Origin: a virus
Virus record (IMG/VR): IMGVR_UViG_3300037168_000018
Span: 1-26,583 of that record
Length of the DNA: 26,583 nt
Strand: one strand, 5' to 3'
Below the pieces are notes generated by a model. It was not told the origin of the DNA, ran no database searches, and worked only from the letters and a program-made list of their open reading frames with translations. How positions within the stretch are numbered: the first letter of the stretch is position 1; every line of letters starts with the position of its first letter. This document shows positions 1 through 24,192 of the stretch, piece by piece. The position numbers were made by a program, and so were the translations under genes.

Positions 1-3000
1 CGCGCGGTCGCGCATCATCGGAGAACTGTCTTGGACGAACTGCCGGATCGTCGTCGGGTCCTTGAGCGTGTCGCCGACCGCGCCGGAGAGGTTCCTGAAG
101 CCGACCTCGCGGATCGCGTTCACGGAGTCTTCGGAGAGCCTGCGCGGCGCGATGGCGAAGCGGTAGCCGAGAGTCGCGAACGTCGTCGCGAACCTGAACC
201 ATCGGACGGTCTGCTCGCCGGGCGTCAGGAATTCAGTCTGCGACGACGCGACGGCCTTCAGGTCCTCGCCTATCTTGCGATAGCCGTCCTGGCCGATGGC
301 GTTTATGATCGCGCTCTTGGCGTCCGGCTGATTCAAGAAGCGAGCCACGTCGATCACGGCGCGGCGGTGCGTGATGTCGTGGATCACGTCGTCCAGGTGA
401 TTGTAGAGCCCGGAGAAGTCCAGGCGCACCGGCCGGGCCAAGCTCTCGACGCGGGACTTCATCGCGCCCTGCTCCGTGTGTGCTGCCGTCGTCGTGAACT
501 GCTTGTAGAGCGCGTTGCGCTGGATCGCGTTCTTGTAGGCGTCGGCCGACTTCGTGAAGTCGTAGGCCAGCGGGAAGTAGCCGCCCGCGAACGTGCCGTG
601 CGCGCTCTCGATGGGCCGGGACGCGACCTTGGACGGCTCGACGCCGTTCACGTCCATTTCGAGAGCCTTGGCCTGCGGCCAGAACTTGTTGACGTAATCG
701 AGGACGCCCTGCGCGAACTGATGGTCTTTATTCGAGAGCCCGTCGGTGATCGCCTTGATCTGCTCTTCAGAGACGTTGAAACCGCGCGTCAGGCGGTCGA
801 GGTTCGTCTCCGATCCTCGGTTCATGAGCAGTATCAGCGCGTTCTCGCGCGTGAGCTTCACGTCCTTCACGCCGTCGGGCGTCTGAATCTTCCAGCGCGC
901 GAACGTGTCTCCGAACTTCTTGAGTTCCTTCGGCGTGTAATACTTCTTGCGAAGATCGTCCAGCTCTTTCGATTTGTCCGCGCGAATCTCGGCCTCGTCG
1001 TTCCAGGCGCGTTCGAGCGGCCGGTAGATGTTGTTCTTCGCCGGGCCATTGGGGTCCATGCGATCCAGGTATTCGCAGAGCGTGAGCAGATTCACCTTGT
1101 CCTGAATCATGCCGTCCGGCCGACCCTTGATCCACTCGACGGCCTTCTGGAGCTTCGACTGATCCAGCTCGCCGAACTGCGGGTTGTTGCCGTAGGGCGT
1201 CCCGATCTCGGCCTCGATCTTGGCCCGGAGCGCCGCCGCGTTCGTCTTCAGGTCGCCTTTATGAAAGCTGTCCAAGAAATGCTCGAACGTGCGCCCGATG
1301 GAGCCGATGGTCTTCATCGTGTCCGTCAGGTCGCGGAAGTCGCCGAGCGTCATCCCCTGCGGGAAGGTCTGACGGTGAACCGGGTCCGTCATCGAATCGG
1401 GGAGCTGCATCGCGTAGTAGTTCTCGTTCACGCGCGCGGCGAACTCCGGCAAGCGCTCCTTGCGCCATTTGCCGTCGGCCCCGATGATGAGCCCGGTCGC
1501 GTTCGCGATCTCGGACGGATCGCCGTTCTTGTCCTTCATGGCCTGCGCGATCTTGACCATCGTCGAGATGTCGCTTGGGCGCGGATCGGAGAGCCCGGTC
1601 GATTCGAGCAGGCCGTCGATCTGTTGCATGAAGCCGAACGGCATCCCCATCAGGTCGTTGCCACGGCCTGCGTACTTGTCCACTACTTTCGAGAGCTTGG
1701 CGACGAGCTTCGAGTTCCTGAACGCCTCGGCGTAGAGCGCATGGTTGAGCATCTGCTCGCCCTTGGCCTGGGCCGCTGCGGCCATGTCGCCGTCGGCGAT
1801 GGCGGCGGTCACGCGCTGAGCGGCCTTGCGCTCGGCCGTGATGTAGGGCCTGAACGCCGACGCCTCTTTGACCGACTTCCCGGCGAGGATATCGGCCGCG
1901 TTCTTCTTGGCGCTGGCGGCGTCTTCGCGCGCTGAGACGGCGTTGCGGCGGCTGACCTCGCCAGCCATCTCTTTCTTGGCGGTCATCTCGCCGAGAATCT
2001 TCTGCTCAAGCGCCAGCAGTTGCGTCGAGTCGTCGTTGTGGACGGCGGCGGTCGCCGCGTCACGGATCTCCTGCGGGTCCTTGAGATTGGAGAACTGCTC
2101 CATGTTCGCGTTGACCTTATCGTTCAGCGCCTTCTCGAACGCGGGCGCGCGCTCAGTGAGCAAGAGCTTCTGAGCCATCTCTTTCGCGTCGGAGAAGCCG
2201 GACATCTCCGCGATGGTGTCGAACTTGGCCGTGTTCTCGTGATCGAGCTTCCCGTTCAGGTAGCCGTGGCACTCCTTCCAGATATCCGGCTGATTGATCC
2301 GCTCGTCGGTGCCCTCGGGATTGAAGAGCGAGTAGGCGCGGAAGACCGGCTCGTTCGCGACCTCGTTGAAGTGCTGCGCGGTCACGCGCTCGCGCTCCTT
2401 GGCGTACTCCTCGCGGTTGCCTTCGGAGATTCCCTGCATCTTCTCGCGGACGAGCTGCTCGAAGGCCTGCTCGTGCGCGCGCTCCTGCAACGTGCGGACG
2501 CGCTTCTGCTGATCGGGTTCGATCCCTTCCATGCCGTGAATGTCGCCCGGGTTGTAGCCGGAGTCATTGGCGGCGCTCTGAATCTCGTCGTTCGTGGCGA
2601 GCAGCCGGTCCATGAATCCGCGCGCGGAGTCGGTCAGGTCAGTCGCCTTGACGCTCCCGCCTCGGATCGAGTTCTTGAGATCGCGGTAGACCTGTGTCAT
2701 CCACTGGGCCATGCGGAAGAAGATCGGCCGGAGGTCGGCGCTCGGGGCCTTCCCTTCCATGATGTACTTCTCGAATCCCTGCGCGAATTTCTCGTGCTGA
2801 TCCTTCGTGAGCTTGTCCTGGTCGTCGCCGACCTTCAGCCAGTCCTTCGCGGCCTGCCAGTGGCGCAGATAGTCTTCGTCGGGAGTTCCGGTCTTGACGA
2901 ACTGGAACGCATCCTCGATCCAGGCGTGAGCCAGCTCGTGCGGGATCGTCGTCACGTCGGCGCTCTTAAAGAACTTGATGGCCTTCTTCGCCGGGTTGAA

Positions 3001-5565
3001 TTCCCCAAGCGTCTCGCCCGCCGTCTGCTTCATCGCGTCAGCGGCCTCGAACTTCTCCGGCGCGAGCCCTTCGCTGGAAACCCACTCTGGCATGATCGCG
3101 GCTTTCTGATCGGCGTAGACGCTGCCGGGCTTCGTCCGGTTTGCCTCGGAGTCGGGATGGAAGTTGACCCACGAGTTCTGACCGCGCGTCTCGGTCGTCA
3201 TGGCGCGCGCGGCGAGCGCGGAGTACATGCGGACGTGCGACTGCCAAGCGTTCTCTTCGCCGTTGGCTCCGAACGTAACGCCCTCTTTGACGTGGCCGAA
3301 GAAGTCGTGGACGACGCGGAAGAGATCGTTCGCCTTGAGCTTCGTCCCGTCGTCGAGCTTCTCGGCGGTGTCGGCGAAGAGCGGGTGATCGTTGAAGCGC
3401 GCGTCGGAGCCGAAGCCCTCGGTCGTCGGGAAGAACCACATGTGTCCCGAACGCACGTCCGCGATCATGGCGGCGGAGTTCTTGTACGGATTCTCCTGAC
3501 CGGCCTTGATGGACTCGATCTTGAGTCCCATCTCTTTCAGGACGTGATACTGGGCGGTCGTCTCGCGGATTAGCGCGTCGTAAGCAGCCTTGACCTCAGG
3601 ATCGGAGGGATCGTGCTTTAGGGCTGCGAAGGCTTCGGCGATCCGTCGCCCTCGTCCGGGCTCGGCGGCGACGTATCCGGTCTGCTCTCGGACGGGGAGT
3701 CCGACGGAGCGGGCGTAGATTCGGGCGGCTTCCCGGACCTCGGGGGAAGGTCCGGGGCTGCTGGCCGGGAGTCCGTCAAGGCGCTCTGCGCCTTGTCGAA
3801 CCGATTCTGCCAGTGAGCTTCGTCCTGCGCTCTCTCCGACAGGCCCCGACGGCTCGGTTTGCTGCTCATGTGCAGATAGTTTAGGGTAGATGACATCGGA
3901 AGTCAAGCCCTGAGTGATCTTGTTCTTCACCTGATCGTAGAGGGCCTGCGGCTCCATGTTTCGGAGCTGAGATTCGACGGCGTAGTGGCGCGCCGCGAGC
4001 GTGGCCGCGTCCTTGAGCTTGGCCTCGTACTGCTTCGAGCCCTTCAGGACGCCGGACGCCTGGAGCTGCTTGTGCAGGTCCGCGAAGATGCCCTGCTCCT
4101 GCGCGCTGGCCTTGATGTCCTTCTCGATCTGCGGTTGGAGAGCGGTCTGCGCCTTCTCGATGTCCTCGCGCGCCTTGGTGTCCTGCTCGTTGAGCTGATT
4201 GAGCGTCATGCCGTCGGCCGAGAACTTCACGTCGCCAGCCAGCTTGTCGTAGTGCGGCGTTCCGACGAGCTTGCTGATCCAGACATCGAGCGGCACCTTC
4301 ACGTCGCCGCCCGTGAGCTTGGCTTCGGGGTACGCCGTCCCGACGCCGATGCGCTGAGCCGCGTCCTTCGGATCGAAGCCGCTCGTCTGGAAGTGCGAGT
4401 CCCACGCCTGAACGGGAACGTAAACGTCGGTCACTGGCGAGCCGTCGGTGAGCCTGCGGATCAGGTCTTGATGGGCCTCGGGCATCAGCTTCATCAGCTT
4501 CGACGCTCCGGCCGTCTGCCCCATGGCCTTATAAAAGTTCTGATCGGCCTCGACTCGCTTGCTCTCGGCCCACTTCTGCATGACGTGATCGCCCGCCGCG
4601 CCCGCGCCGTGCATCGCGCCAATGACGATCCCGTTCTCGATGAACTGCTGGCCCAGCTCGCCGGGCTTGGGCATCTTGCCTTCGACGGCATCGCCGCCGA
4701 CCGTCATCGCGGCGTTCTCGGCCGCGAGCGTGGCGATTGGCCCAAGCCCCGCCAGCTTGCCAGCGCCGCCTGTGCCTGCGGTCAGAGCCCCGATGAAGCC
4801 CTGCTTGCCGGACTCCTTCAGGATGTCGTAGGTGCGCTGAAGAGCGTCCTGAACGCCGGTCAGGTTGCCTTTCTGGATATGCTCCGAGAGCATGGTCTTG
4901 AGTGCGGCCGGGAGAGCCATCGCGCCAGCGCCAGCCCCCAGGACCGCGCCTCCTGCCGTCCCGACGGCTTCTCCGAGAGGTCCGGCCACACTCCCCGCCT
5001 CGAAGCCTGCCGCCGCTCCGGCTACGCCGCCAAGCGTAGAGCCTACGGCCATGGGTACGAAATCTCCTACTAAGCCGCCGATCTGTTTGCCAACACCGAG
5101 CTTCAAGCTGGGCGGCATCGGCTCGGCCGCAGGCGTCCCGAATGCAATCTGAGAAGCCAGCCCGGCCGACGATCCTTCGAGCCCGGACTTGACCGCATCC
5201 AAGAACCCCATCTCGCGCTTCGCGTTCTCGACAAGCTGGGAGTGCTGGGCGACGTTCGGGAGGTCGCCTTGAGCCACGGCCATGTTCGCCGGGTCGCTCA
5301 AGAACTTGGTCGCGGCCGGATGGTTCTTCTCGATCTCGGCGAACAGATCGGGGTGCGGCGTGTCTACGGCCTGCTGAGCCTGCGGGAGATTGGCGGCGAC
5401 GAACGCCGGGTGCTGGCCGGTCTGCGCGGCCAGAGACAGGACCTTCGCCGCCTGCTCCGGCTTCTCGTCCGCTACGGAGTCGTAAATGCCCTTGAGCTTC
5501 GGAGCGTCAGGAATCTTCGAGAGGTCGAGGCCGTCGAACGGCGTGGCGTCGTTAGGGGACGCCAT
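1..5565 (-). CDS. Giant internal virion / ejection protein, C-terminus beyond the window
   Basis: The minus frame is open without a stop from the ATG at 5565 to the left edge, giving 1,855 codons of an incomplete protein. I checked every codon. The start has a purine-rich site (AAGAAGG) and overlaps the previous gene by 14 bases. Visible parts are: a Gly/Ala-rich hydrophobic stretch at about residues 160-215 and another near 245-285, which could insert in membranes; a conserved-looking block at about 750-830 (HDFFGH, GEENAW, ETRGQNSWVNF, ADQKAAIMPEW); a zincin-type HELAH motif at 876-880 followed by AW; long charged helical regions; and a block near 1710-1760 (DDVIHDITHRR). Its position after gp13-, gp14- and gp15-like genes matches the T7 gp16 slot, so I infer a genome-ejection protein. 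I saw no lytic transglycosylase motif in the visible part. It could also be described as a phage polyvalent protein; the enzymatic role is unproven. Confidence 0.88.
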   Translation of the reverse strand, partial: MASPNDATPFDGLDLSKIPDAPKLKGIYDSVADEKPEQAAKVLSLAAQTGQHPAFVAANLPQAQQAVDTPHPDLFAEIEKNHPAATKFLSDPANMAVAQGDLPNVAQHSQLVENAKREMGFLDAVKSGLEGSSAGLASQIAFGTPAAEPMPPSLKLGVGKQIGGLVGDFVPMAVGSTLGGVAGAAAGFEAGSVAGPLGEAVGTAGGAVLGAGAGAMALPAALKTMLSEHIQKGNLTGVQDALQRTYDILKESGKQGFIGALTAGTGGAGKLAGLGPIATLAAENAAMTVGGDAVEGKMPKPGELGQQFIENGIVIGAMHGAGAAGDHVMQKWAESKRVEADQNFYKAMGQTAGASKLMKLMPEAHQDLIRRLTDGSPVTDVYVPVQAWDSHFQTSGFDPKDAAQRIGVGTAYPEAKLTGGDVKVPLDVWISKLVGTPHYDKLAGDVKFSADGMTLNQLNEQDTKAREDIEKAQTALQPQIEKDIKASAQEQGIFADLHKQLQASGVLKGSKQYEAKLKDAATLAARHYAVESQLRNMEPQALYDQVKNKITQGLTSDVIYPKLSAHEQQTEPSGPVGESAGRSSLAESVRQGAERLDGLPASSPGPSPEVREAARIYARSVGLPVREQTGYVAAEPGRGRRIAEAFAALKHDPSDPEVKAAYDALIRETTAQYHVLKEMGLKIESIKAGQENPYKNSAAMIADVRSGHMWFFPTTEGFGSDARFNDHPLFADTAEKLDDGTKLKANDLFRVVHDFFGHVKEGVTFGANGEENAWQSHVRMYSALAARAMTTETRGQNSWVNFHPDSEANRTKPGSVYADQKAAIMPEWVSSEGLAPEKFEAADAMKQTAGETLGEFNPAKKAIKFFKSADVTTIPHELAHAWIEDAFQFVKTGTPDEDYLRHWQAAKDWLKVGDDQDKLTKDQHEKFAQGFEKYIMEGKAPSADLRPIFFRMAQWMTQVYRDLKNSIRGGSVKATDLTDSARGFMDRLLATNDEIQSAANDSGYNPGDIHGMEGIEPDQQKRVRTLQERAHEQAFEQLVREKMQGISEGNREEYAKERERVTAQHFNEVANEPVFRAYSLFNPEGTDERINQPDIWKECHGYLNGKLDHENTAKFDTIAEMSGFSDAKEMAQKLLLTERAPAFEKALNDKVNANMEQFSNLKDPQEIRDAATAAVHNDDSTQLLALEQKILGEMTAKKEMAGEVSRRNAVSAREDAASAKKNAADILAGKSVKEASAFRPYITAERKAAQRVTAAIADGDMAAAAQAKGEQMLNHALYAEAFRNSKLVAKLSKVVDKYAGRGNDLMGMPFGFMQQIDGLLESTGLSDPRPSDISTMVKIAQAMKDKNGDPSEIANATGLIIGADGKWRKERLPEFAARVNENYYAMQLPDSMTDPVHRQTFPQGMTLGDFRDLTDTMKTIGSIGRTFEHFLDSFHKGDLKTNAAALRAKIEAEIGTPYGNNPQFGELDQSKLQKAVEWIKGRPDGMIQDKVNLLTLCEYLDRMDPNGPAKNNIYRPLERAWNDEAEIRADKSKELDDLRKKYYTPKELKKFGDTFARWKIQTPDGVKDVKLTRENALILLMNRGSETNLDRLTRGFNVSEEQIKAITDGLSNKDHQFAQGVLDYVNKFWPQAKALEMDVNGVEPSKVASRPIESAHGTFAGGYFPLAYDFTKSADAYKNAIQRNALYKQFTTTAAHTEQGAMKSRVESLARPVRLDFSGLYNHLDDVIHDITHRRAVIDVARFLNQPDAKSAIINAIGQDGYRKIGEDLKAVASSQTEFLTPGEQTVRWFRFATTFATLGYRFAIAPRRLSEDSVNAIREVGFRNLSGAVGDTLKDPTTIRQFVQDSSPMMRDRA

Positions 5566-7216
5566 TGGCCTTCTTCGCCTGCTCGACAAGAGCCGCGATA
5601 TCCTCGGGGCGAGCCTGCTTGTTGTTCTTCTCCAAGAACGCCTGCGCCGTGTTTACCATCAGATCGCCGTACTTGGACGAGAGCTTCGCGCGCTTGTCGA
5701 GGTCGAGATCGTGCGCGTCTCTCGTGAGCTGCCACTTCGGCTTCTTCGTATCCCACATCCAGCCGGGATCGGTGACGACATCCTTCACGGCGTCCATGAC
5801 GCCAGCGCGAATCTCGGCCGGGCTCTTGCCCATGTACTGACGCTTCATCTCTTCGACGAACGCGCCGCGCAGGTTGGTCTTGACGCCGGAAGCCTCGTCG
5901 CCGGGGAGAACTTCGGAGGCGCTGCTCTTGAACTTCGCGGTCGCGACCTTCTCGACCCAATCCCACGCGAGCTTTTGATCCGGCGTCTGCGTCGTCATGA
6001 TCTTGCTCATCGCCGACGGGTCCTTCGTGTAGACGGCCTGGAACAGTTTCTCTTTCTCGGCGCGGTCGTTGTTGTCGATGAAGCTGCCCTTCTTGATGAG
6101 CGAGTCGTAAGCGTTCTCTGGCGGTACGCCTTGGCGCTGAGCGTCCAGCACGGAGTTCGAGAACTTCTGATCTGCCAGATTCTTGTTCTGCTCGAATGCG
6201 GCGTTGCGCCGCTCGGCCTGCTTGTGAACCTCGTCGAGAATGTGTTCCTGCTGCGGGAGCGGGAGCGTGGAAACCATTTGCTTCGCGGCGGCTTCAACGC
6301 GGCCGAAGTTCGCCACGCCAGCATCGGAGTTCGCGGGATTGTTCAAGACCTGATCCGCGACCTGATACTTCCTCATGTCGAGCCACTTACCGTCCACCTT
6401 TGACTTCAGAACGCCGTAGGTGTCCTCGGAGACTTGGCCCGCTGAGTGCATTTTCTCAAGCGCATCCCGAGCGAGGTCCGGCTTGAGTTCTATATTTCTA
6501 TCCACCATTGCCTTCGCGAATTGATCCCCCACGGCCAATCCGCGAGCGTTTGTCGTGTCGGCGTCTTCGCCTTGCCGACGGGAGAGGTCTGTGCGCGCGT
6601 CCTGCGCCGCTTGCAAGAGCTTCTGTGACGCCGGAGAGCTTGGGTCCGTTGAGAACGTGTTCGCGTTCCCGGCGATGAACGTATCCGTCTTGTCGATGTC
6701 GGAGAGCTTGGCTTGCTGTGCTTCATGCTTCACTACCGCGTTGAACCCGACCGCTCGGTGCGAGTCGAGGCCGCGCAGTACCTCCGTGTATTCTTGAGAG
6801 CCGGGAGACAGTCCCGCGAGCGCCTTCTCGCGCCACTTGGATTCTTGGCCGATGTAGCTGTTCGGATCAAGGTCCGTCGGGCCTTGCTGACCGGGCGGTA
6901 AGTCTTTGCCGTGAGTGATCCCGACGGCGTTGCCGCGTTGCTTCGTGAGAAGACCGCCGTCGCCGTTGAGCGCCTGATCTTGATTGAGAGCGTAGCCGTT
7001 GATCCGGTCGTACCCGTCGGCGCGCGCCGCGTTGCGCTGCTGCCAAACGATGTACTTCGCCATGTCGCCGCCGACGCCTTCGACGGTATTGCCGAGCCCG
7101 GCCTCGGCTTCGGCTATCTGAACGCCGGAAGAACCTGGACCCATGGACTCGACGTGAGCGGCGGGAACGCCGATGTCATCGACGCCAACCTTCTGATCGT
7201 ATTCGGGGACGATCAT
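5552..7216 (-). CDS. Internal virion protein, gp15-like
   Basis: This 554-residue soluble protein is mostly charged, alpha-helical sequence with Gln/Asn/Ala-rich stretches and no signal peptide or membrane span. Its N-terminal part (about residues 60-100) reads as a helix followed by a flexible Gly/Gln segment. The ATG at 7216 overlaps the stop of the gp14-like gene by four bases (ATGA). In T7-like phages the gene in this slot, between gp14 and gp16, encodes an internal core protein that leaves the capsid with the DNA and forms part of the periplasmic tunnel. The assignment here rests on position, length (somewhat shorter than T7 gp15) and helical composition, since I recognise no specific motif. 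It ends with TAA inside the start of the giant gene, which suggests translational coupling. Confidence 0.72.
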   Translation of the reverse strand: MIVPEYDQKVGVDDIGVPAAHVESMGPGSSGVQIAEAEAGLGNTVEGVGGDMAKYIVWQQRNAARADGYDRINGYALNQDQALNGDGGLLTKQRGNAVGITHGKDLPPGQQGPTDLDPNSYIGQESKWREKALAGLSPGSQEYTEVLRGLDSHRAVGFNAVVKHEAQQAKLSDIDKTDTFIAGNANTFSTDPSSPASQKLLQAAQDARTDLSRRQGEDADTTNARGLAVGDQFAKAMVDRNIELKPDLARDALEKMHSAGQVSEDTYGVLKSKVDGKWLDMRKYQVADQVLNNPANSDAGVANFGRVEAAAKQMVSTLPLPQQEHILDEVHKQAERRNAAFEQNKNLADQKFSNSVLDAQRQGVPPENAYDSLIKKGSFIDNNDRAEKEKLFQAVYTKDPSAMSKIMTTQTPDQKLAWDWVEKVATAKFKSSASEVLPGDEASGVKTNLRGAFVEEMKRQYMGKSPAEIRAGVMDAVKDVVTDPGWMWDTKKPKWQLTRDAHDLDLDKRAKLSSKYGDLMVNTAQAFLEKNNKQARPEDIAALVEQAKKANGVP

Positions 7217-7776
7217 GAGTTGCCCAAATTATTGCTCGTCGGCATCTTGTACCAGGAGCTTGCGACTGATCCGGCCGTGCCGAGGATCGTGCTTTCAGCC
7301 TGTATGTTCGACGCCGAGCGGATGTTGCTCCCGGTGAGTTCATCGCCTGCGGCCTGCGTCTCGTAGCCGAACGCCGCCGTCTCGCCGCTGACCGTCGCGG
7401 CCTTGGCCTTCATGTCGGCATTGAGCCGGAGAGCCTGCTCGTCAAGGTTGCCTTGGTTCTCGGTGTTCGCGATCAGGTCTTGGCCGGTGCGCGATCCGAC
7501 TCCCGCGCCGCCAGCGGCCAGAGCGGCCTTCTGCGAGGCCATGGTCGCGTTGACGTTGTTCGTGAGCCTGCGCTGAGCGTCGGCTTCGGCCGTACCGATG
7601 GCTTCGCGATTGGCCGTGATCCCGGCTTCGGCGAGCCCTGCGTTTGCCCTCGCGCCAGAGGCCAGATAGTCGTAGTAGCCCTGCTGAATCTTCCCCTGCT
7701 GGGTTTGCTGATAGGCAGAGAAAAGACCGCCGCCGACTTGCGCGCCTACCGCGATTGGAAGAGCTGCCGCGCCCAC
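7213..7776 (-). CDS. Internal virion protein, gp14-like
   Basis: This is a 187-residue protein. I chose a GTG start at 7776 because AGGAGGGC lies just upstream and the G is shared with the preceding TAG stop; a longer version would run back into the previous gene. The N-terminus (residues 2-20) is hydrophobic and glycine-rich and could form a membrane helix. It is followed by Gln/Ala/Asn-rich helical sequence (FSAYQQTQQGKIQQGYYDY and later NREAIGTAEADAQRR). This layout, a short hydrophobic glycine segment followed by an amphipathic Ala/Gln-rich helix, is typical of small T7 gp14-type ejection proteins, which form the outer-membrane part of the DNA channel. The order gp13-like, gp14-like, gp15-like, giant protein supports the role. 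Confidence 0.72.
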   Translation of the reverse strand: MGAAALPIAVGAQVGGGLFSAYQQTQQGKIQQGYYDYLASGARANAGLAEAGITANREAIGTAEADAQRRLTNNVNATMASQKAALAAGGAGVGSRTGQDLIANTENQGNLDEQALRLNADMKAKAATVSGETAAFGYETQAAGDELTGSNIRSASNIQAESTILGTAGSVASSWYKMPTSNNLGNS

Positions 7777-8225
7777 TATGCCCTCCTGATGCTGAAGCGT
7801 CTGAATCCGGGGATCGCTGATCCCTCGTCGAATACCGCGCCGCACGATTCAAGCCAGCGAATTGCCGAGACGTAGCGCACGTCAACCACGTTCCAGAGTA
7901 TAGGATAGCTTGACAGAAATTTGACGATTACTTGACGGCTCAGCTTCACGAACGTCTTCTTGATCCGGGCCAGCTCGGGAGTGCCGAGGAACCAAATGCA
8001 AGCCTCGTCGCCTAAGAGCGTCTGCGGATGCAGGCCGAAGAGCCCCACCGGAACGCCGTCGATCTCAACCGTTCGACGCACAGTCGAGTTTTTGAAAGAG
8101 TAGACCAACGCGCTCTCAACGCTCGCGTTGCCCGCCGCAAGGAGTTCTTGAGCATCTGCCTCACGAAGCCTCCCGCTGAGTTTGCGGATGTCGCGACTCT
8201 TCGCCTTCCTGATCTTGACGATCAC
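7776..8225 (-). CDS. GNAT-like phage protein in the gp13 slot
   Basis: This is a 149-residue protein with a GTG start whose GTGA overlaps the stop of the nozzle gene; GGGGG lies four bases upstream. The sequence has the pattern of the phage acetyltransferase-like family found beside podovirus tail genes: an N-terminal strand and helix (IRKAKSRDIRKL, then READAQELLAAG), a central region (VGLFGLHP, then ACIWFLGTPEL) and a C-terminal part (LWNVVDVRYVSAIRWLESCGAVF) resembling the GNAT NxxAxxxYxxxGF ending. T7 gp13 and relatives occupy the same position and are needed for virion maturation rather than for proven acetylation. Whether this copy binds acetyl-CoA cannot be judged from sequence, as I see no clear Q/RxxGxG/A loop. 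Confidence 0.75.
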   Translation of the reverse strand: MIVKIRKAKSRDIRKLSGRLREADAQELLAAGNASVESALVYSFKNSTVRRTVEIDGVPVGLFGLHPQTLLGDEACIWFLGTPELARIKKTFVKLSRQVIVKFLSSYPILWNVVDVRYVSAIRWLESCGAVFDEGSAIPGFRRFSIRRA

Positions 8226-11200
8226 TTTTCCCCCGCGACGACAGACGGAAGGAACGCGAGCAGGCATACCGGAAGCGGGTCCACCTGTCTGAAGAAAACA
8301 TGCGCGCCGAAGTCGTAGCCGCCGTTCATCGTGACCTTGTAATCGCGGGTCTTGAGAGCGATGGGCGCGTTGTAGTTGTCGCCCGGCCCGCGCTGGCTCA
8401 GCTCGTCGAAGCCCGCATTGCTCACGCTGTCCGCAGGCTCAACGTCTTCTGAGCAGGCCATGAAGTAACCGCCGCGAGAGTTCCAGAACCGCATGGTGAC
8501 TTCGGGTATCGCCACGCGCCGACCCTGGAGCGTTCCCTGACGATCAGGCGCTTCGATGGTAAGAGTTTCAAGATCGCAGACATAGGGGAGTCCGACGGTA
8601 ACTATGGAAGCCGCTACCGCAAGCGTGATCGTTCCGTTATTCACCACCTGGGCCGGAACCACGTTACCGTCGGCAAGAATGGAAACGGTCATTCCGTTCA
8701 GGTACGAAAGTCCTGAGATGACCGTAGCGGGAGAGCTGTTGTAGGTAAGGCCGCAATCGACGAAGAACTGATTGGCCGGGTTCGTGCCCTGGTCGCGCGG
8801 CATCAGACGCTCGATGAAGCGCGTCGTAACGCCGCCGACGGTACGGTTCACGACGAACCAAGTCTCGTTGATTCCGAGCGTTTGATTCGGGATCGTGACG
8901 ACGCTCTCGAAGAGCCCGTTCGTGTCGTGATGGCTCCATGCGTTCATCTCCTGCTCGCGCATGTATGTGCAGGAAAGAAGCTCGCCGTCTGATCGCACCG
9001 CCCAAACAATCGAGTCCGGCTCCTGCTGATAGGCCATCTGCTTGATCGTGTATCCAGTGAAAAGATGCTGGGAGACGATGCTCAAGTTGTCGCCCATGAA
9101 TCCGTTTACCGCGAGCTGGAATATCATGTTGCGGACCACAGTCCCCATCTGCTGAATCAGGATTAGCTCGACGCCGACGGCGACTGGATCAATCGCCGCG
9201 CTACCGCGATGGCCCTGGAGCTGGACGTTGTAGGTCGAAGGCGTGAACGATCCAGAGCCGGAAGCTGTGTTGATCGCCCATTCTGAATCTGACGTGAGCG
9301 CGATCAAGAACTGCGGCATGACGATGAGGGTCTGGATCGCGTTGAGCTGCCTGCCGGGGAGCAAGGCGCTGATGCTGTCCGTGTCCACGACGGGAGAGCT
9401 GATGCCAAAATCGAGATAGCTCGCCGTCTTGCTGAACCAAATCGTCTGAGGCTCAGAATTTGTAGACGCCCATGCGAGACGGTCCTGATAGAATGTTACT
9501 GCCGTCGGCCAGCCACGATAAGTTGACCAAGACCCTTCGGACCAGTTGTAGGTCGCGCTCGTATTTGCGAGCCCCGTGTTCGATGAGTTTGACTGTTCGA
9601 GAACGGTCGCGGTAACTGATGTTTCGTTGCTGAACGCCGTGATCTGAACCGTACAAATCCAGTCGAACGTGGTCGATGTTAAGTCGATTGTCGCCGTACC
9701 GCTGAATGAGACGGATGGGTCTGCCGATACTCGGAGCAGGCATTGGGACACTCCCGTCGAGCCGGAGGTCTGGAAGTTATCGCTCCCCGCGGATTGCAAT
9801 GTTTGTACGAGTTGCCAATTACTCCCGCCATCAGTCGATATTTCGACGCGCAGTTTTCCTGTCCAGCCCCCCGTCGTGATGATGCTCCAGTTCTGCCCGC
9901 ACAGGATCGCGGATGAAACGCTCGCCGGAGAAACGATGACTGTGAGAGTAGGAGCTGCCCCGGTCGTGCCGTCAACGGTCGCAGCAGGCGAGCCGCCGCC
10001 ATTAACTGTCTTGATCGCTTTGATAAGGCAAGCCGTCTCCCCGGTCGCAACGCTAGTAGATGTCTGGTTCGTGGTGTATGTCGCCAGAGTCGTCCAAGTC
10101 GCGCCATAGTCGGTAGACTTCTGAAGCAGAACGGTGTCACCGCTGCCGGTCAGACTCGTGAGCGTGATTATCGCCGTGTCCCCAGCAGCTACAGGAGTCG
10201 TCGCCGCGTTCAGAACTTGGATGACCGTCGGACCTGTCGAATTACCATTCCCCGAGAGAACGACTGAGGCCGATCCAGAGAACGCGACCGAAGATTGCAT
10301 GATCGCCCGCATGTAGCCGTTCGTAAAGCTCGCCGTTCCGCTGACTGTCCCGTTCGCGACCACTGTTGAGACTGTCGTCCAGGTAATATTGTCGGGAGAA
10401 GTCTGGATTAGGATAGTGCCTGACCATGTGCCTGAAGTCACAGCCTGCCACGTCGATTTCGTTGCTATCTCGTTCTTAACCGATGATGTGATGCTCGGCG
10501 TGATCGTCTGCCCGACGATGGTCGAGATAAGCTGGAAAAGACCGTTGACCTGACCTGCGTTGAAGATCGACTTCGACGACGTGAGCATGATGCTTCCGGC
10601 CAAAGCTGACGGCGTGATCGTCGAGGTGGTGTCCGTGTTCTCGATCATGAACGGGCCGTTGATGAAAGAGTATGCGGCCAGCGCCCAATTCGCGGCGCTG
10701 TTGAAGTTGAGCTGTTGCGGCGCGTAGCTCGGATGCGCGATGTAGAGAACATCAGCAGACTGAGCGAACTTCAGATTGAAGATGTCGGCGGCGGCATAGG
10801 GCGTGACGATCTGATAGGCGGTTTGCGCGCGCCAGTACCCGGACGCAAGATCGGCCGCGAACGAAGAGCCGGAGGCATTGTTGACGATGCAGTAGTAGGT
10901 GTTTCCGCCGTTCGTGACGAAATTACCGACGACGTAGTTCGTGCCGGAGCCTGACCACGCGCCCACGCCTGACGCCTGCACCTGCGCGTCGGCCGTATAG
11001 AAACGCATGTAGTAATTTCCGACTTCGATCACATAGGCTTGGTTCGTCGCGGCGACGAACGGTATCAGACGGACAGCATTTGTAGAATCCCCGGCCGTAG
11101 AAACCATCGTCGTTCCTGCACGATTGCGCGCGCCGCCGTGGGGAAGGATGTTGAAGTTGCGGATCGTCTTCATCCCCGTCAGGTACTTGGCGATGTCAAC

Positions 11201-11272
11201 GCGCGCGTAGAGGCTTGGAGAGAACTCGCCTCCGGCAAACGAACTCTGCGCCGTGAATATCGGGCCGGGCAT
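8222..11272 (-). CDS. Tail nozzle protein, T7 gp12 / tail tubular protein B-like, with added beta modules
   Basis: This is a 1,016-residue protein. The N-terminus (FAGGEFSPSLYARVDIAKY, then NFNILPHGGARNRAGT at 39-54) is the signature opening of podovirus tail tubular protein B, the nozzle closing the short tail. The C-terminal half (about 560-1016) continues the family pattern (WPTAVTFYQDRLAWAST, DSEWAI, ERLMPRD). Between about residues 271 and 536 there are three Ser/Thr/Gly-rich beta-type modules, each with the theme TS/ST-D-x(4)-TW or NW (QTSPDNITWT, KSTDYGATWT, ISTDGGSNWQ). They look like repeated immunoglobulin- or BNR-like strands and make the protein longer than the roughly 800 residues of T7 gp12. 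The ATG shares an A with the adaptor stop (TGATG). The inserted modules may display on the tail surface, which is inference. Confidence 0.9.
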   Translation of the reverse strand: MPGPIFTAQSSFAGGEFSPSLYARVDIAKYLTGMKTIRNFNILPHGGARNRAGTTMVSTAGDSTNAVRLIPFVAATNQAYVIEVGNYYMRFYTADAQVQASGVGAWSGSGTNYVVGNFVTNGGNTYYCIVNNASGSSFAADLASGYWRAQTAYQIVTPYAAADIFNLKFAQSADVLYIAHPSYAPQQLNFNSAANWALAAYSFINGPFMIENTDTTSTITPSALAGSIMLTSSKSIFNAGQVNGLFQLISTIVGQTITPSITSSVKNEIATKSTWQAVTSGTWSGTILIQTSPDNITWTTVSTVVANGTVSGTASFTNGYMRAIMQSSVAFSGSASVVLSGNGNSTGPTVIQVLNAATTPVAAGDTAIITLTSLTGSGDTVLLQKSTDYGATWTTLATYTTNQTSTSVATGETACLIKAIKTVNGGGSPAATVDGTTGAAPTLTVIVSPASVSSAILCGQNWSIITTGGWTGKLRVEISTDGGSNWQLVQTLQSAGSDNFQTSGSTGVSQCLLRVSADPSVSFSGTATIDLTSTTFDWICTVQITAFSNETSVTATVLEQSNSSNTGLANTSATYNWSEGSWSTYRGWPTAVTFYQDRLAWASTNSEPQTIWFSKTASYLDFGISSPVVDTDSISALLPGRQLNAIQTLIVMPQFLIALTSDSEWAINTASGSGSFTPSTYNVQLQGHRGSAAIDPVAVGVELILIQQMGTVVRNMIFQLAVNGFMGDNLSIVSQHLFTGYTIKQMAYQQEPDSIVWAVRSDGELLSCTYMREQEMNAWSHHDTNGLFESVVTIPNQTLGINETWFVVNRTVGGVTTRFIERLMPRDQGTNPANQFFVDCGLTYNSSPATVISGLSYLNGMTVSILADGNVVPAQVVNNGTITLAVAASIVTVGLPYVCDLETLTIEAPDRQGTLQGRRVAIPEVTMRFWNSRGGYFMACSEDVEPADSVSNAGFDELSQRGPGDNYNAPIALKTRDYKVTMNGGYDFGAHVFFRQVDPLPVCLLAFLPSVVAGEK

Positions 11273-21807: not shown

Positions 21808-22118
21808 TACTCGACCTCCACAGCTTTCTCCTCAACCCGGTACGTCGTCGAGGACGTGCGGGTGAGTTCGGAGACGTTGAAGAAGCCGCGCTTGCAGTAC
21901 CCGACGTACCTGTCCGCAATCTGAATCTCCGGGCACAGCGCGATACCCCAAACCCTCGCCCCATCCTCCAGCGCCTTCTTTGCCTTGGCGCGGTTGGTCG
22001 TGAAGGATATTCTGGCGTCACAGGCAGGGTCTAGAGATAAATACGACGGGCCTTTTGCGGGCGTTGTTTTGATCGACGCACACATCACCGCCGCCGTCAT
22101 CATCACAAACAGGTTCAT
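21807..22118 (-). CDS. Probable exported or membrane-anchored hypothetical protein
   Basis: This is a 103-residue protein. The ATG at 22118 is preceded by AGGAGG. The N-terminus (MNLFVMMTAAVMCASIKTTP) is hydrophobic and could be a signal peptide or anchor, although it lacks the usual positive charge; the Cys at 13 is not in a convincing lipobox. The body (DARISFTTNRAKAKKALEDG, then CPEIQIADRYVGYCKRGFFN) contains three more cysteines (37, 70, 82) that could form a disulfide in the periplasm, which supports export. I do not recognise a family. It follows a 177-base region that carries the hexamer repeat. Confidence 0.75.
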   Translation of the reverse strand: MNLFVMMTAAVMCASIKTTPAKGPSYLSLDPACDARISFTTNRAKAKKALEDGARVWGIALCPEIQIADRYVGYCKRGFFNVSELTRTSSTTYRVEEKAVEVE

Positions 22119-22172
22119 GGTTTCCTCCTGCAAATCTTGCGCGTTGGCCCCGACGCGCGGCGGGTGTGGATA

Positions 22173-22292
22173 TCAGCTCCCGCTCCCGCTCCAGCTCCTG
22201 CTCCCGCTCCTGCTCCCGCTCCCGCTCCCGCTCCCGCTCCCGCTCCTGCTCCTGCGCCAGCTCCACTTATTTTTTCGGCTTCGGATAGCCAT
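22173..22292 (-). CDS. Possible Ser/Gly/Arg repeat peptide, low confidence
   Basis: An ATG at 22292, three bases after the previous stop and with GAGG six bases upstream, opens a 39-residue frame: MAIRSRKNKWSWRR followed by Ser-Gly and Ser-Arg dipeptides and a stop at 22173. The frame runs through the hexamer repeat, which is open in all three minus frames, so openness is not evidence. A GTG-started Glu/Arg frame (22018-22266) also exists but overlaps the next gene by 100 bases. If translated, the peptide would be a basic, disordered RS-like sequence. Confidence 0.3.
   Translation of the reverse strand: MAIRSRKNKWSWRRSRSGSGSGSGSGSRSGSRSWSGSGS
22176..22256. repeat. GAGCGG-type hexamer tandem repeat
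   Basis: About 13 copies of a 6-base unit (minus strand GAGCGG, with GAGCAG and GAGCTG variants) occupy 22176-22256. All three minus frames stay open, giving Ser-Gly/Arg, Glu-Arg/Gln or Gly-Ala dipeptides. The unit length is a multiple of three, so changes in copy number would keep any reading frame. It lies between two well-supported genes. Confidence 0.9.
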
Positions 22293-22295
22293 GGC

Positions 22296-22565
22296 CTACC
22301 TCTTGTCTGTCTTGCCGAAGCTCTCCAGAGCGGATAACTGGACGTAAAGCTGGAAAGGCAGCGGCTGTTTGTCCTTAAATGACTTGTCGCTGAATGCCCC
22401 CGTTTCGTAGACGATGGCCGGATTCTCCAGTAGGACACAGGTGTCGTTTACGCCTGCGAGAGTGCCGGTGTAAATGTAGTTTAAGCAGAACAGCATCACG
22501 GTTTCGCCCATTAGCCCGACAAGCCCTTCGCCGTCCACTTCGGTAACGCTGACGATCTTCTTCAT
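22296..22565 (-). CDS. Conserved-type small phage protein
   Basis: This is an 89-residue protein starting two bases after the previous stop with GGAG nine bases upstream. It begins with charged strands (MKKIVSVTEVDGEGLVGLMG), then a hydrophobic core (MLFCLNYIYTGTLAGVNDTCVLL), then AIVYETGAFSDKSFKD and ALESFGK. The pattern YIYTGxLxGVN followed by VYETG and a final (A/I)ESFG is one I recall from many uncharacterised phage proteins, so it is probably an old phage family with a small beta-barrel-like fold. Function unknown. Confidence 0.82.
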   Translation of the reverse strand: MKKIVSVTEVDGEGLVGLMGETVMLFCLNYIYTGTLAGVNDTCVLLENPAIVYETGAFSDKSFKDKQPLPFQLYVQLSALESFGKTDKR

Positions 22566-22566
22566 T

Positions 22567-23055
22567 TCATTTTCTCCTTTGCGTCTCAGACTTCGCCAAC
22601 ACGGCGTTCTCCGAGAATAAAATGAACTTCCCGTTAACGACCCCTATCGGCCAGAAACCAAGTTTCCACACCGCCCAAATAGCGGTGAATGGATTCTTTT
22701 GCGGCATCTTATCTGCGACGACTCCCCAGGCGGCGTCCCTGGCGGCGTCCCTGGCGGCGGCCCTGGCGGCGTCCCTGGCGGCGTCCCAGGCGGCGTCACT
22801 GGCGGCGTCCCTGGCGGCGTCCCTGGCGGCGGCCCTGGCGGCGTCCCTGGCGGCGGCCCAGTTCGTAACGACTTCGATTTCAAACCCCGCCTTTAATCCA
22901 AACGGGGACAATAAGGCAAAATGTGCTTCGATATTCAGCTTCGCCTGAACCGTATCCGTCCCCCTGAACCAAGGGATCGTTTTGCAATCCTCTTTGATTT
23001 CCGCGACTTTCGCATCAGCATTTTTCTGCCAATCCGGCACTATCACTTTTTCCAT
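22567..23055 (-). CDS. Ala-rich RDAA-repeat protein
   Basis: This 162-residue protein has a normal start site (AAGGAG). Residues 1-66 are ordinary ([20 protein letters not shown], then [18 protein letters not shown]). Residues about 67-110 are eleven tetrapeptide repeats of the type R-D-A-A with R, S, W or A in the first position. The C-terminus ([26 protein letters not shown]) is a compact hydrophobic unit that I recall ending related repeat proteins of phages and plasmids. The repeat should form a long charged helix, perhaps a spacer or coiled scaffold. Repeat number is likely to vary between relatives. No known enzyme motif. Confidence 0.8.
22728..22860. repeat. 12-base tandem repeat coding RDAA
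   Basis: About eleven units of 12 bases (minus strand AGGGACGCCGCC and variants) run from 22728 to 22860. Variation is confined to the first codon (R, S, W or A) and the second (D or A). The unit is a multiple of three, so copy-number changes keep the frame of the Ala-rich protein. Confidence 0.95.
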
Positions 23056-23325: not shown

Positions 23326-24192
23326 TTACGACTGGGGATCGGCCGTCTCATCTTTCACCGCGAGCATCGCTTCGATCATCTCGACGGCCTTGGCGTAGAA
23401 CTTCCGTCGAGTTTCCGGAAGACTGAATTTCGCACGGAGTTCGGCATAGACCTTGTTGTAGACCTCGCTCCATTTCGCCGAGTAGCGGGCGGCGTCGGCG
23501 GCGGCGGCGTCGGCGGCGGCGTCGGCGGCGGCGGCGTCGGCGGCGGCGTCGGCGAAGTAATACCACCGGCCGTAGATGTTCTCGCACCCTATTCGGACGG
23601 CGTTCTTCACCTCAGCGTCCTTGGCCTCGACGACGCGATGGGCTATTTCCAGGTCACGCGACTCCTCGTCTTTGTCGAGCGTCTTTTTGAAGCAGAGATT
23701 CGCCGCCGCATGGAATATGACGATGCCTTCGGGCTTCATGAATCCGGGGGCGGCATAGCTTCCATCTAAGCGCAGGCGATTGACCCAGTTCTCGGCCATG
23801 ACCGTATCGAACATCCCGCTGGCGAGTACCGGAACCACGTGACAGCACTTAGGGCGCACGGCTTCATCGCCCCATCGCGAAGTATTGAATAGCGAGAACC
23901 GCTTCTCAGTTAGCCCGTAGTTGCGCTGAATCCCATGGCCCCACCACTCCCCGAAATGGGAGCCAACGCCGAGGCGCATCAATTCCTCGCGGTTCGCGTG
24001 AGCCCACTTGGCGAAACCGTAGTTGTCATCCTCAGGCGTGATCCATCTCGTCCGACTCCCGACAAGGAATTGACCGTCCTCGGTGATAGTGATGGAGGCA
24101 TTGGTCCCGTCGATCTTCTCGGTGATGAAGCACTCGCGGGTAAGGCGGGCGATCTTGGCGAAAGCGGCGAACTCAGGCTTTACGATTTCCAT
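23326..24192 (-). CDS. ATP-dependent RNA ligase, Rnl2-like, with an Ala/Asp repeat
   Basis: This is a 288-residue nucleotidyltransferase. Motif I is ITEKIDGTN with the predicted AMP-accepting Lys at 26; GSRTRW at 45-50 fits the next motif; FGEWWGHG at 80-87 with Glu82 fits motif IIIa; EGIVIF at 155-160 with Glu155 fits motif IV; and CFKK at 167-170 fits motif V. These are the RNA-ligase-type motifs, so I read it as an enzyme that seals RNA nicks, for instance tRNAs cut by host defence nucleases. Residues about 213-236 are an insert of Ala and Asp repeats. The final 45 residues are helical. It is preceded by a 35-residue gene, and GGGAG lies 8 bases upstream. Confidence 0.85.
   Translation of the reverse strand: MEIVKPEFAAFAKIARLTRECFITEKIDGTNASITITEDGQFLVGSRTRWITPEDDNYGFAKWAHANREELMRLGVGSHFGEWWGHGIQRNYGLTEKRFSLFNTSRWGDEAVRPKCCHVVPVLASGMFDTVMAENWVNRLRLDGSYAAPGFMKPEGIVIFHAAANLCFKKTLDKDEESRDLEIAHRVVEAKDAEVKNAVRIGCENIYGRWYYFADAAADAAAADAAADAAAADAARYSAKWSEVYNKVYAELRAKFSLPETRRKFYAKAVEMIEAMLAVKDETADPQS
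23488..23554. repeat. GCC/GAC codon repeat inside the RNA ligase gene
   Basis: The minus strand carries GCC codons with regularly spaced GAC (A-D-A-A-A-D-A-A-A, a 27-base period repeated about two and a half times) at 23488-23554. It encodes residues 213-236 of the RNA ligase, after its catalytic domain. Frame is kept for copy-number changes of three bases. Confidence 0.93.

Follow-up and report, generated by a model that had tools for sequence, protein, structure and literature searches.

A predicted zincin and a second candidate metalloenzyme domain in a Bbp10-type giant protein of a podovirus

The very large open frame that closes the structural block of this viral contig raises the question of whether a phage protein delivered with the genome carries a metallopeptidase, and whether the conserved block found upstream of its HELAH motif belongs to the same enzyme. 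The window, that is, the whole stretch analysed (26,583 nucleotides; IMG/VR record IMGVR_UViG_3300037168_000018), is a virus record and evidently a fragment. Its minus strand holds a podovirus structural block in which a portal (PF12236), a GP7-type major capsid protein and a phrog_376 tail protein are followed by internal virion proteins, then by a 554-aa protein and last by the giant frame.

The giant frame and its place in the phage

The giant frame starts with an ATG at 5565 on the minus strand and meets no stop up to base 1, which agrees with the incomplete frame of 1,855 residues given in the initial annotation. AAGAAGG is the likely Shine-Dalgarno sequence ahead of this ATG, and the start overlaps the 3' end of the upstream gene.

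8222..11272, minus strand: tail protein (phrog_376)
7776..8267, minus strand: T7 gp13-like internal virion protein (phrog_308, PF11090)
7213..7845, minus strand: internal virion protein (phrog_418)
5552..7216, minus strand: 554-aa protein without detectable relatives, at the place that the 'structural lysozyme' has in relatives of the giant protein's phage
1..5565, minus strand: giant polyvalent/ejection protein of the Bbp10 (BPP-1) family (phrog_9880), 1,855 residues up to the contig end, where the C-terminus is cut off
5218..5472, minus strand: LPD22 (large polyvalent protein associated domain), residues 32-116 (Pfam PF18834)
4891..5088, minus strand: residues ~160-225, hydrophobic and Gly/Ala-rich, with a mean hydropathy that reaches 1.49 in a span of 19 residues

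In a PHROG profile search phrog_9880 matched residues 856-1855 with E=1e-166, and since the match reaches only position 1929 of the 2231 in the profile, about 300 C-terminal residues appear to be missing. Matches by tblastn were obtained in 240 phage records, and those to the C-terminal half are podovirus giants, for example BPP-1 Bbp10 and its counterparts in Pseudomonas AF and UFJF_PfDIW6, Caulobacter Jess A, Cobetia Carin1 and Xanthomonas CP2. The PF18834 match near the N-terminus (E=7e-10) scored 39.4 bits against a cut-off of 28.6, and the Gly/Ala-rich stretch that follows is possibly membrane-interacting. With LPD22 and the FFGH and zincin domains described below joined in one chain, the protein has the large multidomain build of polyvalent proteins and is a further member of that class.

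Around several relatives the tail tube gene comes first, followed by those for internal virion proteins A and B, the structural lysozyme, the giant protein and a tail spike or fibre. This supports the placing of the giant protein in the internal-virion-protein position of an epsilon15/BPP-1-like podovirus, and both its gene position and its relatives suggest that it would be packaged and carried into the host with the DNA. The initial annotation had placed the frame in the position of T7 gp16, and in so far as the block of internal virion proteins ends with its largest gene the likeness stands; the homology, on the other hand, is to Bbp10/phrog_9880, and unlike T7 gp16 the protein gave no transglycosylase match within its visible 1,855 residues in Pfam and PHROG searches, the lack of such a signature having been noticed from the outset. 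The 554-aa protein gave no PHROG match, no Pfam match above cut-off and no phage tblastn match, so that no wall hydrolase is visible in the structural block of the window.

Among the relatives, only gp205 of Rhodococcus phage E3 bears the annotation 'structural protein'. In databases, giant proteins with the HELAH zincin go by 'lysin', 'lysis protein' or 'crystallin motif' protein; the names met among relatives ('lysin', 'lysis protein', 'crystallin beta/gamma motif', 'coil containing' and 'RelA/SpoT') found no support in the matched parts. One further record deserves mention, that of Limnohabitans phage DC33 (PQ492659.1), which is filed under Inoviridae and yet has, in a genome of 39 kb, the gene for a podovirus giant protein of Bbp10 type.

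The zincin-like domain

2566..3003, minus strand: zincin-like metallopeptidase domain, residues ~855-1000 (AlphaFold2 core pLDDT 95-97, 77-row alignment)
2926..2940, minus strand: HELAH, residues 876-880, with H876 and H880 as predicted zinc ligands and E877 as predicted general base (conservation; model helix 38-57)
2791..2793, minus strand: E925, predicted third zinc ligand, in QHEKFA, 45 residues past H880 (model helix 86-102)

HELAH lies at residues 876-880, preceded by Ile-Pro and followed by Ala-Trp, as first described. An HExxH motif is by itself weak evidence, since 5.9% of shuffles of the giant protein hold some HExxH (the exact HELAH occurred in 0.07%), and it is conservation that decides. 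A scan of viral contigs with the single zincin sequence found no relatives, and these were gathered by an alignment-based scan instead. All 111 aligned relatives, a set partly chosen on the HExxH motif, keep H876, E877, H880 and E925 without change; HExxH is likewise kept in 31 of 31 HExxH-containing rows that were gathered prior to any HExxH pattern scan. As the three motif residues and E925 are this strictly conserved across relatives only about 17-42% identical to the window, the idea that a helical structural protein happens to contain HELAH by chance, for which the shuffle frequency speaks, is hardly credible and in effect refuted.

The AlphaFold2 model built from the 77-row alignment comprises two strands, a helix (38-57 in model numbering) with HELAH and a second helix (86-102) with E925. 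It agrees with the zincin core of three strands, HExxH helix and Glu helix described by Iyer et al. 2017 (PMC5512222), with one strand fewer. No PDB match with E<=0.001 was obtained for the model in a Foldseek search, in which lethal-factor zincin chains recur between ranks 6 and 23, none of them at that threshold; the weak Pfam matches of members of the family are scattered over DUF4344, Tox-MPTase4, M78, M3, ATLF and DUF6782. We consider that residues ~855-1000 very probably adopt a gluzincin-like peptidase fold and that they probably form an active peptidase, with a site predicted from conservation and model to hold zinc on H876, H880 and E925 and to use E877 as base. The zincin-like reading of the initial annotation, which had left a third ligand to be sought and had allowed for homologues lacking the His or Glu residues, is thereby strengthened, both by the invariance of these residues and by a candidate ligand on the downstream helix.

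That a phage-encoded metalloprotease of this sort would be unusual, as was initially supposed, does not hold, and the domain is of a known kind and not new. Residues 700-1000 of Bbp10 from BPP-1 served in 2013 as a seed of the predicted zincin family CLCA_X (PMC3650047), whose members are mostly phage, prophage and plasmid proteins and share HExxH with the window. The published CLCA_X consensus is HExxHxxxD with the Asp suggested as ligand (PMC3650047), whereas the window reads HELAHAWIE with a Glu (E884) at the Asp position; Glu is usual there in relatives too, the seed Bbp10 included, and the invariant E925 downstream is the better candidate for the third ligand. According to the 2017 survey (PMC5512222), zincins are the commonest domain of phage polyvalent proteins, about 36% of which carry one, and fall into 12 clades. 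The polyvalent metallopeptidases described there, such as those of the N4 virion RNA polymerase and P1 DdrB, resemble the window in being multidomain, in the presence of LPD domains and in the pairing of an HExxH helix with a Glu helix.

The FFGH domain and its bacterial relatives

3052..3783, minus strand: FFGH domain, residues ~595-838, predicted metalloenzyme, phrog_3170 of unknown function (AlphaFold2 pLDDT 96.1, 84-row alignment)
3292..3309, minus strand: HDFFGH, residues 753-758, predicted metal-site motif (H753, D754 and H758 invariant in four groups)
3235..3261, minus strand: GEENAW, residues 769-774, and H777 (E770 in 127 of 128 rows, H777 in 128 of 128)
3175..3192, minus strand: ETRGQN, residues 792-797, with E792 as candidate third metal ligand (E792 and Q796 invariant in four groups)
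3103..3114, minus strand: ADQK, residues 818-821 (K821 invariant)

The dense block that had been noted upstream of HELAH, at a distance that comes to 123 residues, is present with all four of its motifs, and its attribution to the same enzyme gives way to that of a separate domain. Of 176 open frames with FFGH in the loci collected, 22 also hold a zincin (the window and a few repeats of the same contig included), and the spacing between the two ranges from about 15 residues in the window and two further loci (L013, L016) to several hundred or more, with the order reversed in L026. FFGH is found alone in mycobacteriophages, in a 188-aa Streptomyces phage protein, in phage genes just after the portal gene and in bacterial chromosomes, and because it occurs either alone or far from the zincin it is regarded as an independent domain.

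Comparison of 128 rows from four groups (phage, SAH-operon, HMT-operon and Micromonosporaceae/mycobacteriophage) showed H753, D754, H758, H777, E792, Q796 and K821 to be invariant. In the model the key elements are placed on three consecutive helices, HDxxxH on 155-169, GEE and the following His on 177-188 and E792 on 193-212 (model numbering). FFGH is a previously unmodelled domain with a candidate His/His/Glu site formed by H753, H758 and E792. The domain is enzyme-like and occurs in at least 593 viral contigs by pattern scan, and a relative is encoded in 132 bacterial-genome stretches, yet it is without a Pfam or NCBIfam model: no convincing sequence match to Pfam, NCBIfam or PDB was obtained, no PDB fold matched the model with E<=0.001, and FFGH was found neither in the available part of Iyer et al. 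2017 (PMC5512222) nor among the LPD models of Pfam. As far as these libraries and open-access papers show, FFGH is undescribed as an enzyme family with a metabolic context, although it may have been mentioned under another name.

The cellular FFGH operons offer a concrete functional lead. Twelve bacterial loci, belonging to Bacteroidota, Alpha- and Gammaproteobacteria and one actinomycete, have a gene for a SAH-hydrolase-like protein of about 351 aa no further than about 530 bases from FFGH; this protein matched a PDB adenosylhomocysteinase with E=9e-22. DUF3293 is also present in 11 of these 12 loci; all three are joined in one 812-residue frame in Actinophytocola (L118), and FFGH is fused to DUF3293 in the BD1-7 clade bacterium (L123, L124). 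A second clade, represented by Paraburkholderia (L139, L145), Nocardia (L157, L162) and Micromonospora (L163), associates FFGH with a homocysteine S-methyltransferase and a Cys/Met PLP enzyme, only the latter being present in L164. Paraburkholderia L145 adds a methyltransferase, an SAH hydrolase and a class V aminotransferase-fold enzyme; frames resembling its methyltransferase and class V genes occur in Nocardia L157, and an adenosine deaminase is found in both Nocardia loci. Each operon type forms one clade in the FFGH tree (supports 99/96 and 100/99), whose bootstrap had not fully settled. These gene neighbourhoods make a good case that cellular FFGH is tied to SAM/SAH/homocysteine chemistry.

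The phage clade of the window is separate from the cellular clades (support 100/98), and among the neighbours of FFGH in phage loci there was no SAM-cycle gene. The SAM-cycle context comes from the cellular clades; the phage domain has the same invariant site, and we infer by analogy that phage FFGH may act in the same chemistry. Solo copies look patchy in their distribution, as FFGH was found only in the starting genome among 297 genomes sampled around Aquimarina.

A different neighbourhood was seen in 22 actinomycete loci (e.g. L131:7403-9496), where solo FFGH adjoins an N-6 DNA methylase, usually together with a Ser/Thr kinase-like protein, and in 16 of the 22 lies about 1.3-3.8 kb from a Cas3-like helicase-type gene. 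These loci are of Micromonosporaceae type and represent one syntenic block in related genomes, and the methylase is therefore given little weight.

A kinship of DUF3293 with SAM lyases was also considered and rejected. Among the DUF3293 genes that adjoin FFGH (L119:10703-11104 and relatives), weak matches to PF23780, the S-adenosylmethionine lyase family, were seen in 3 of 10 members, the best (E=0.0022) being below the cut-off. When DUF3293 was compared by hhalign with the T3 0.3 protein the score was 20.7, where shuffles gave 18.9 at most, yet a different region was aligned and the result is not taken as evidence.

Possible roles of the two domains

The explanation proposed is that a Bbp10-type polyvalent protein would be expressed from the late operon, enter the virion and leave it together with the DNA, and that it has at least two predicted metalloenzyme domains which are independent of each other and adjacent in the chain. 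The likeliest use of the zincin would be to cut the polyvalent chain itself, freeing domains before or after ejection, and FFGH may act on a SAM/SAH/homocysteine-related substrate in the host. Taken as a whole, the chances for and against this explanation are about equal. We know of no identified substrate for the zincin family of such giant proteins. Autoprocessing as the main use of the zincin is a tentative proposal, to which we give slightly less than an even chance. Both autoprocessing and effector roles have been proposed for polyvalent-protein zincins in the survey (PMC5512222), which also describes the N4 virion RNA polymerase as carrying a zincin and yet being packaged uncut, an argument against autoprocessing.

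Alternatively, the zincin could be a host-directed effector that cleaves envelope, transcription or defence proteins after ejection, as the initial annotation had in part envisaged. The intact and strictly conserved catalytic site speaks for such a role, and the targeting of host proteins is listed as an alternative by Iyer et al. (PMC5512222). The zincin is, however, common to many phages of different hosts, which favours a general phage role over one narrow host target, and the effector role is judged rather unlikely. Autoprocessing is at least as likely as cleavage of the envelope or of host defence proteins.

For FFGH, the occurrence of bacterial solo homologues in SAH-hydrolase, homocysteine-methyltransferase and Cys/Met clusters points to a SAM-cycle compound as substrate, a suggestion that we advance cautiously and with the balance leaning against it. 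FFGH might in that case shift host methylation at entry, for instance by blunting SAM-dependent restriction or BREX, a purpose that is less likely than the chemistry itself. It is doubtful that the full proposition applies, in which FFGH would be a new SAM/SAH/homocysteine metalloenzyme family fused into injected proteins by many tailed phages and altering host methylation from DNA entry onwards, ahead of all phage gene expression. Should phages indeed bring a SAM-cycle enzyme into the host, they would have, as a protein active before transcription, a counterpart of the early-expressed T3 enzyme, which is described as a SAM lyase (PMC7877911, PMC8406200). The T3 gene itself (gene 0.3, L286:901-1359) is annotated in NC_003298 as 'SAM-dependent methyltransferase' as against the SAM lyase of these two papers.

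Another kinship for FFGH is with the biopterin-dependent aromatic amino acid hydroxylases (PF00351), which would make it a non-heme-iron oxygenase with a 2-His-1-Glu iron site. Bacterial phenylalanine hydroxylases have, like FFGH, HDxFGH and a Glu downstream, and the order of helices in the FFGH model fits that of the hydroxylase core. A profile built from the aromatic hydroxylase genes present in 13 of 22 FFGH-bearing genomes matched FFGH on the motif with a score of 31.4, while the highest of 100 column-shuffled controls reached 22.1, but this match spans 14 columns only and its P of 0.0016 belongs to a comparison picked after the motif had been seen. Phenylalanine and tryptophan hydroxylase chains likewise appear at ranks 6, 19 and 27 of 350,542 in the fold search, but with structural alignments that are not significant (E>=1.4, rmsd 18-19 A). 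There is no family-wide sequence match either, PF00351 being absent among the 25 of 32 families listed for 84 FFGH members and absent for the window domain. The motif match being real yet short and chosen after the fact, the resemblance is treated as a lead, and the kinship as unlikely. It is compatible with SAM-cycle chemistry, as an oxygenase could act on a SAM-cycle compound.

Improbable is the reading of FFGH as a second metallopeptidase with an HDxxxH site. Its HxxxxH followed by Glu resembles the HEXXXH zincin variants of some polyvalent proteins (PMC5512222), and two FFGH members match MATCAP weakly (E=0.011); against this, the position of the catalytic Glu is an Asp in 128 of 128 rows, no zincin is among the best 50 PDB fold matches and the cellular context is metabolic. 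MATCAP, an HEXXXH peptidase, was rejected as a relative of FFGH after a profile comparison gave P=0.43 with a MATCAP profile of two sequences.

A distant sister family of FFGH, with HDxGH in place of HDxxGH, is suggested by LKA1 ORF7 (L191:3662-4228) and other phage proteins of 160-190 aa (phrog_7806, phrog_33646). The phrog_7806 relatives were found by structure search, LKA1 ORF7 itself having E=0.22. In these early proteins FRAFHDLGH, EEE and FDTVGQ parallel FRVVHDFFGH, GEE and TETRGQ of FFGH; unlike FFGH, LKA1 ORF7 has one residue fewer between the histidines and is a small early-region protein, not a polyvalent one.

Elsewhere in the window, at 22115-23055 and 23326-24192 on the minus strand, Ala-rich low-complexity repeats ([29 protein letters not shown]) occur in three neighbouring frames, the third of which is an RNA ligase (PF09414).
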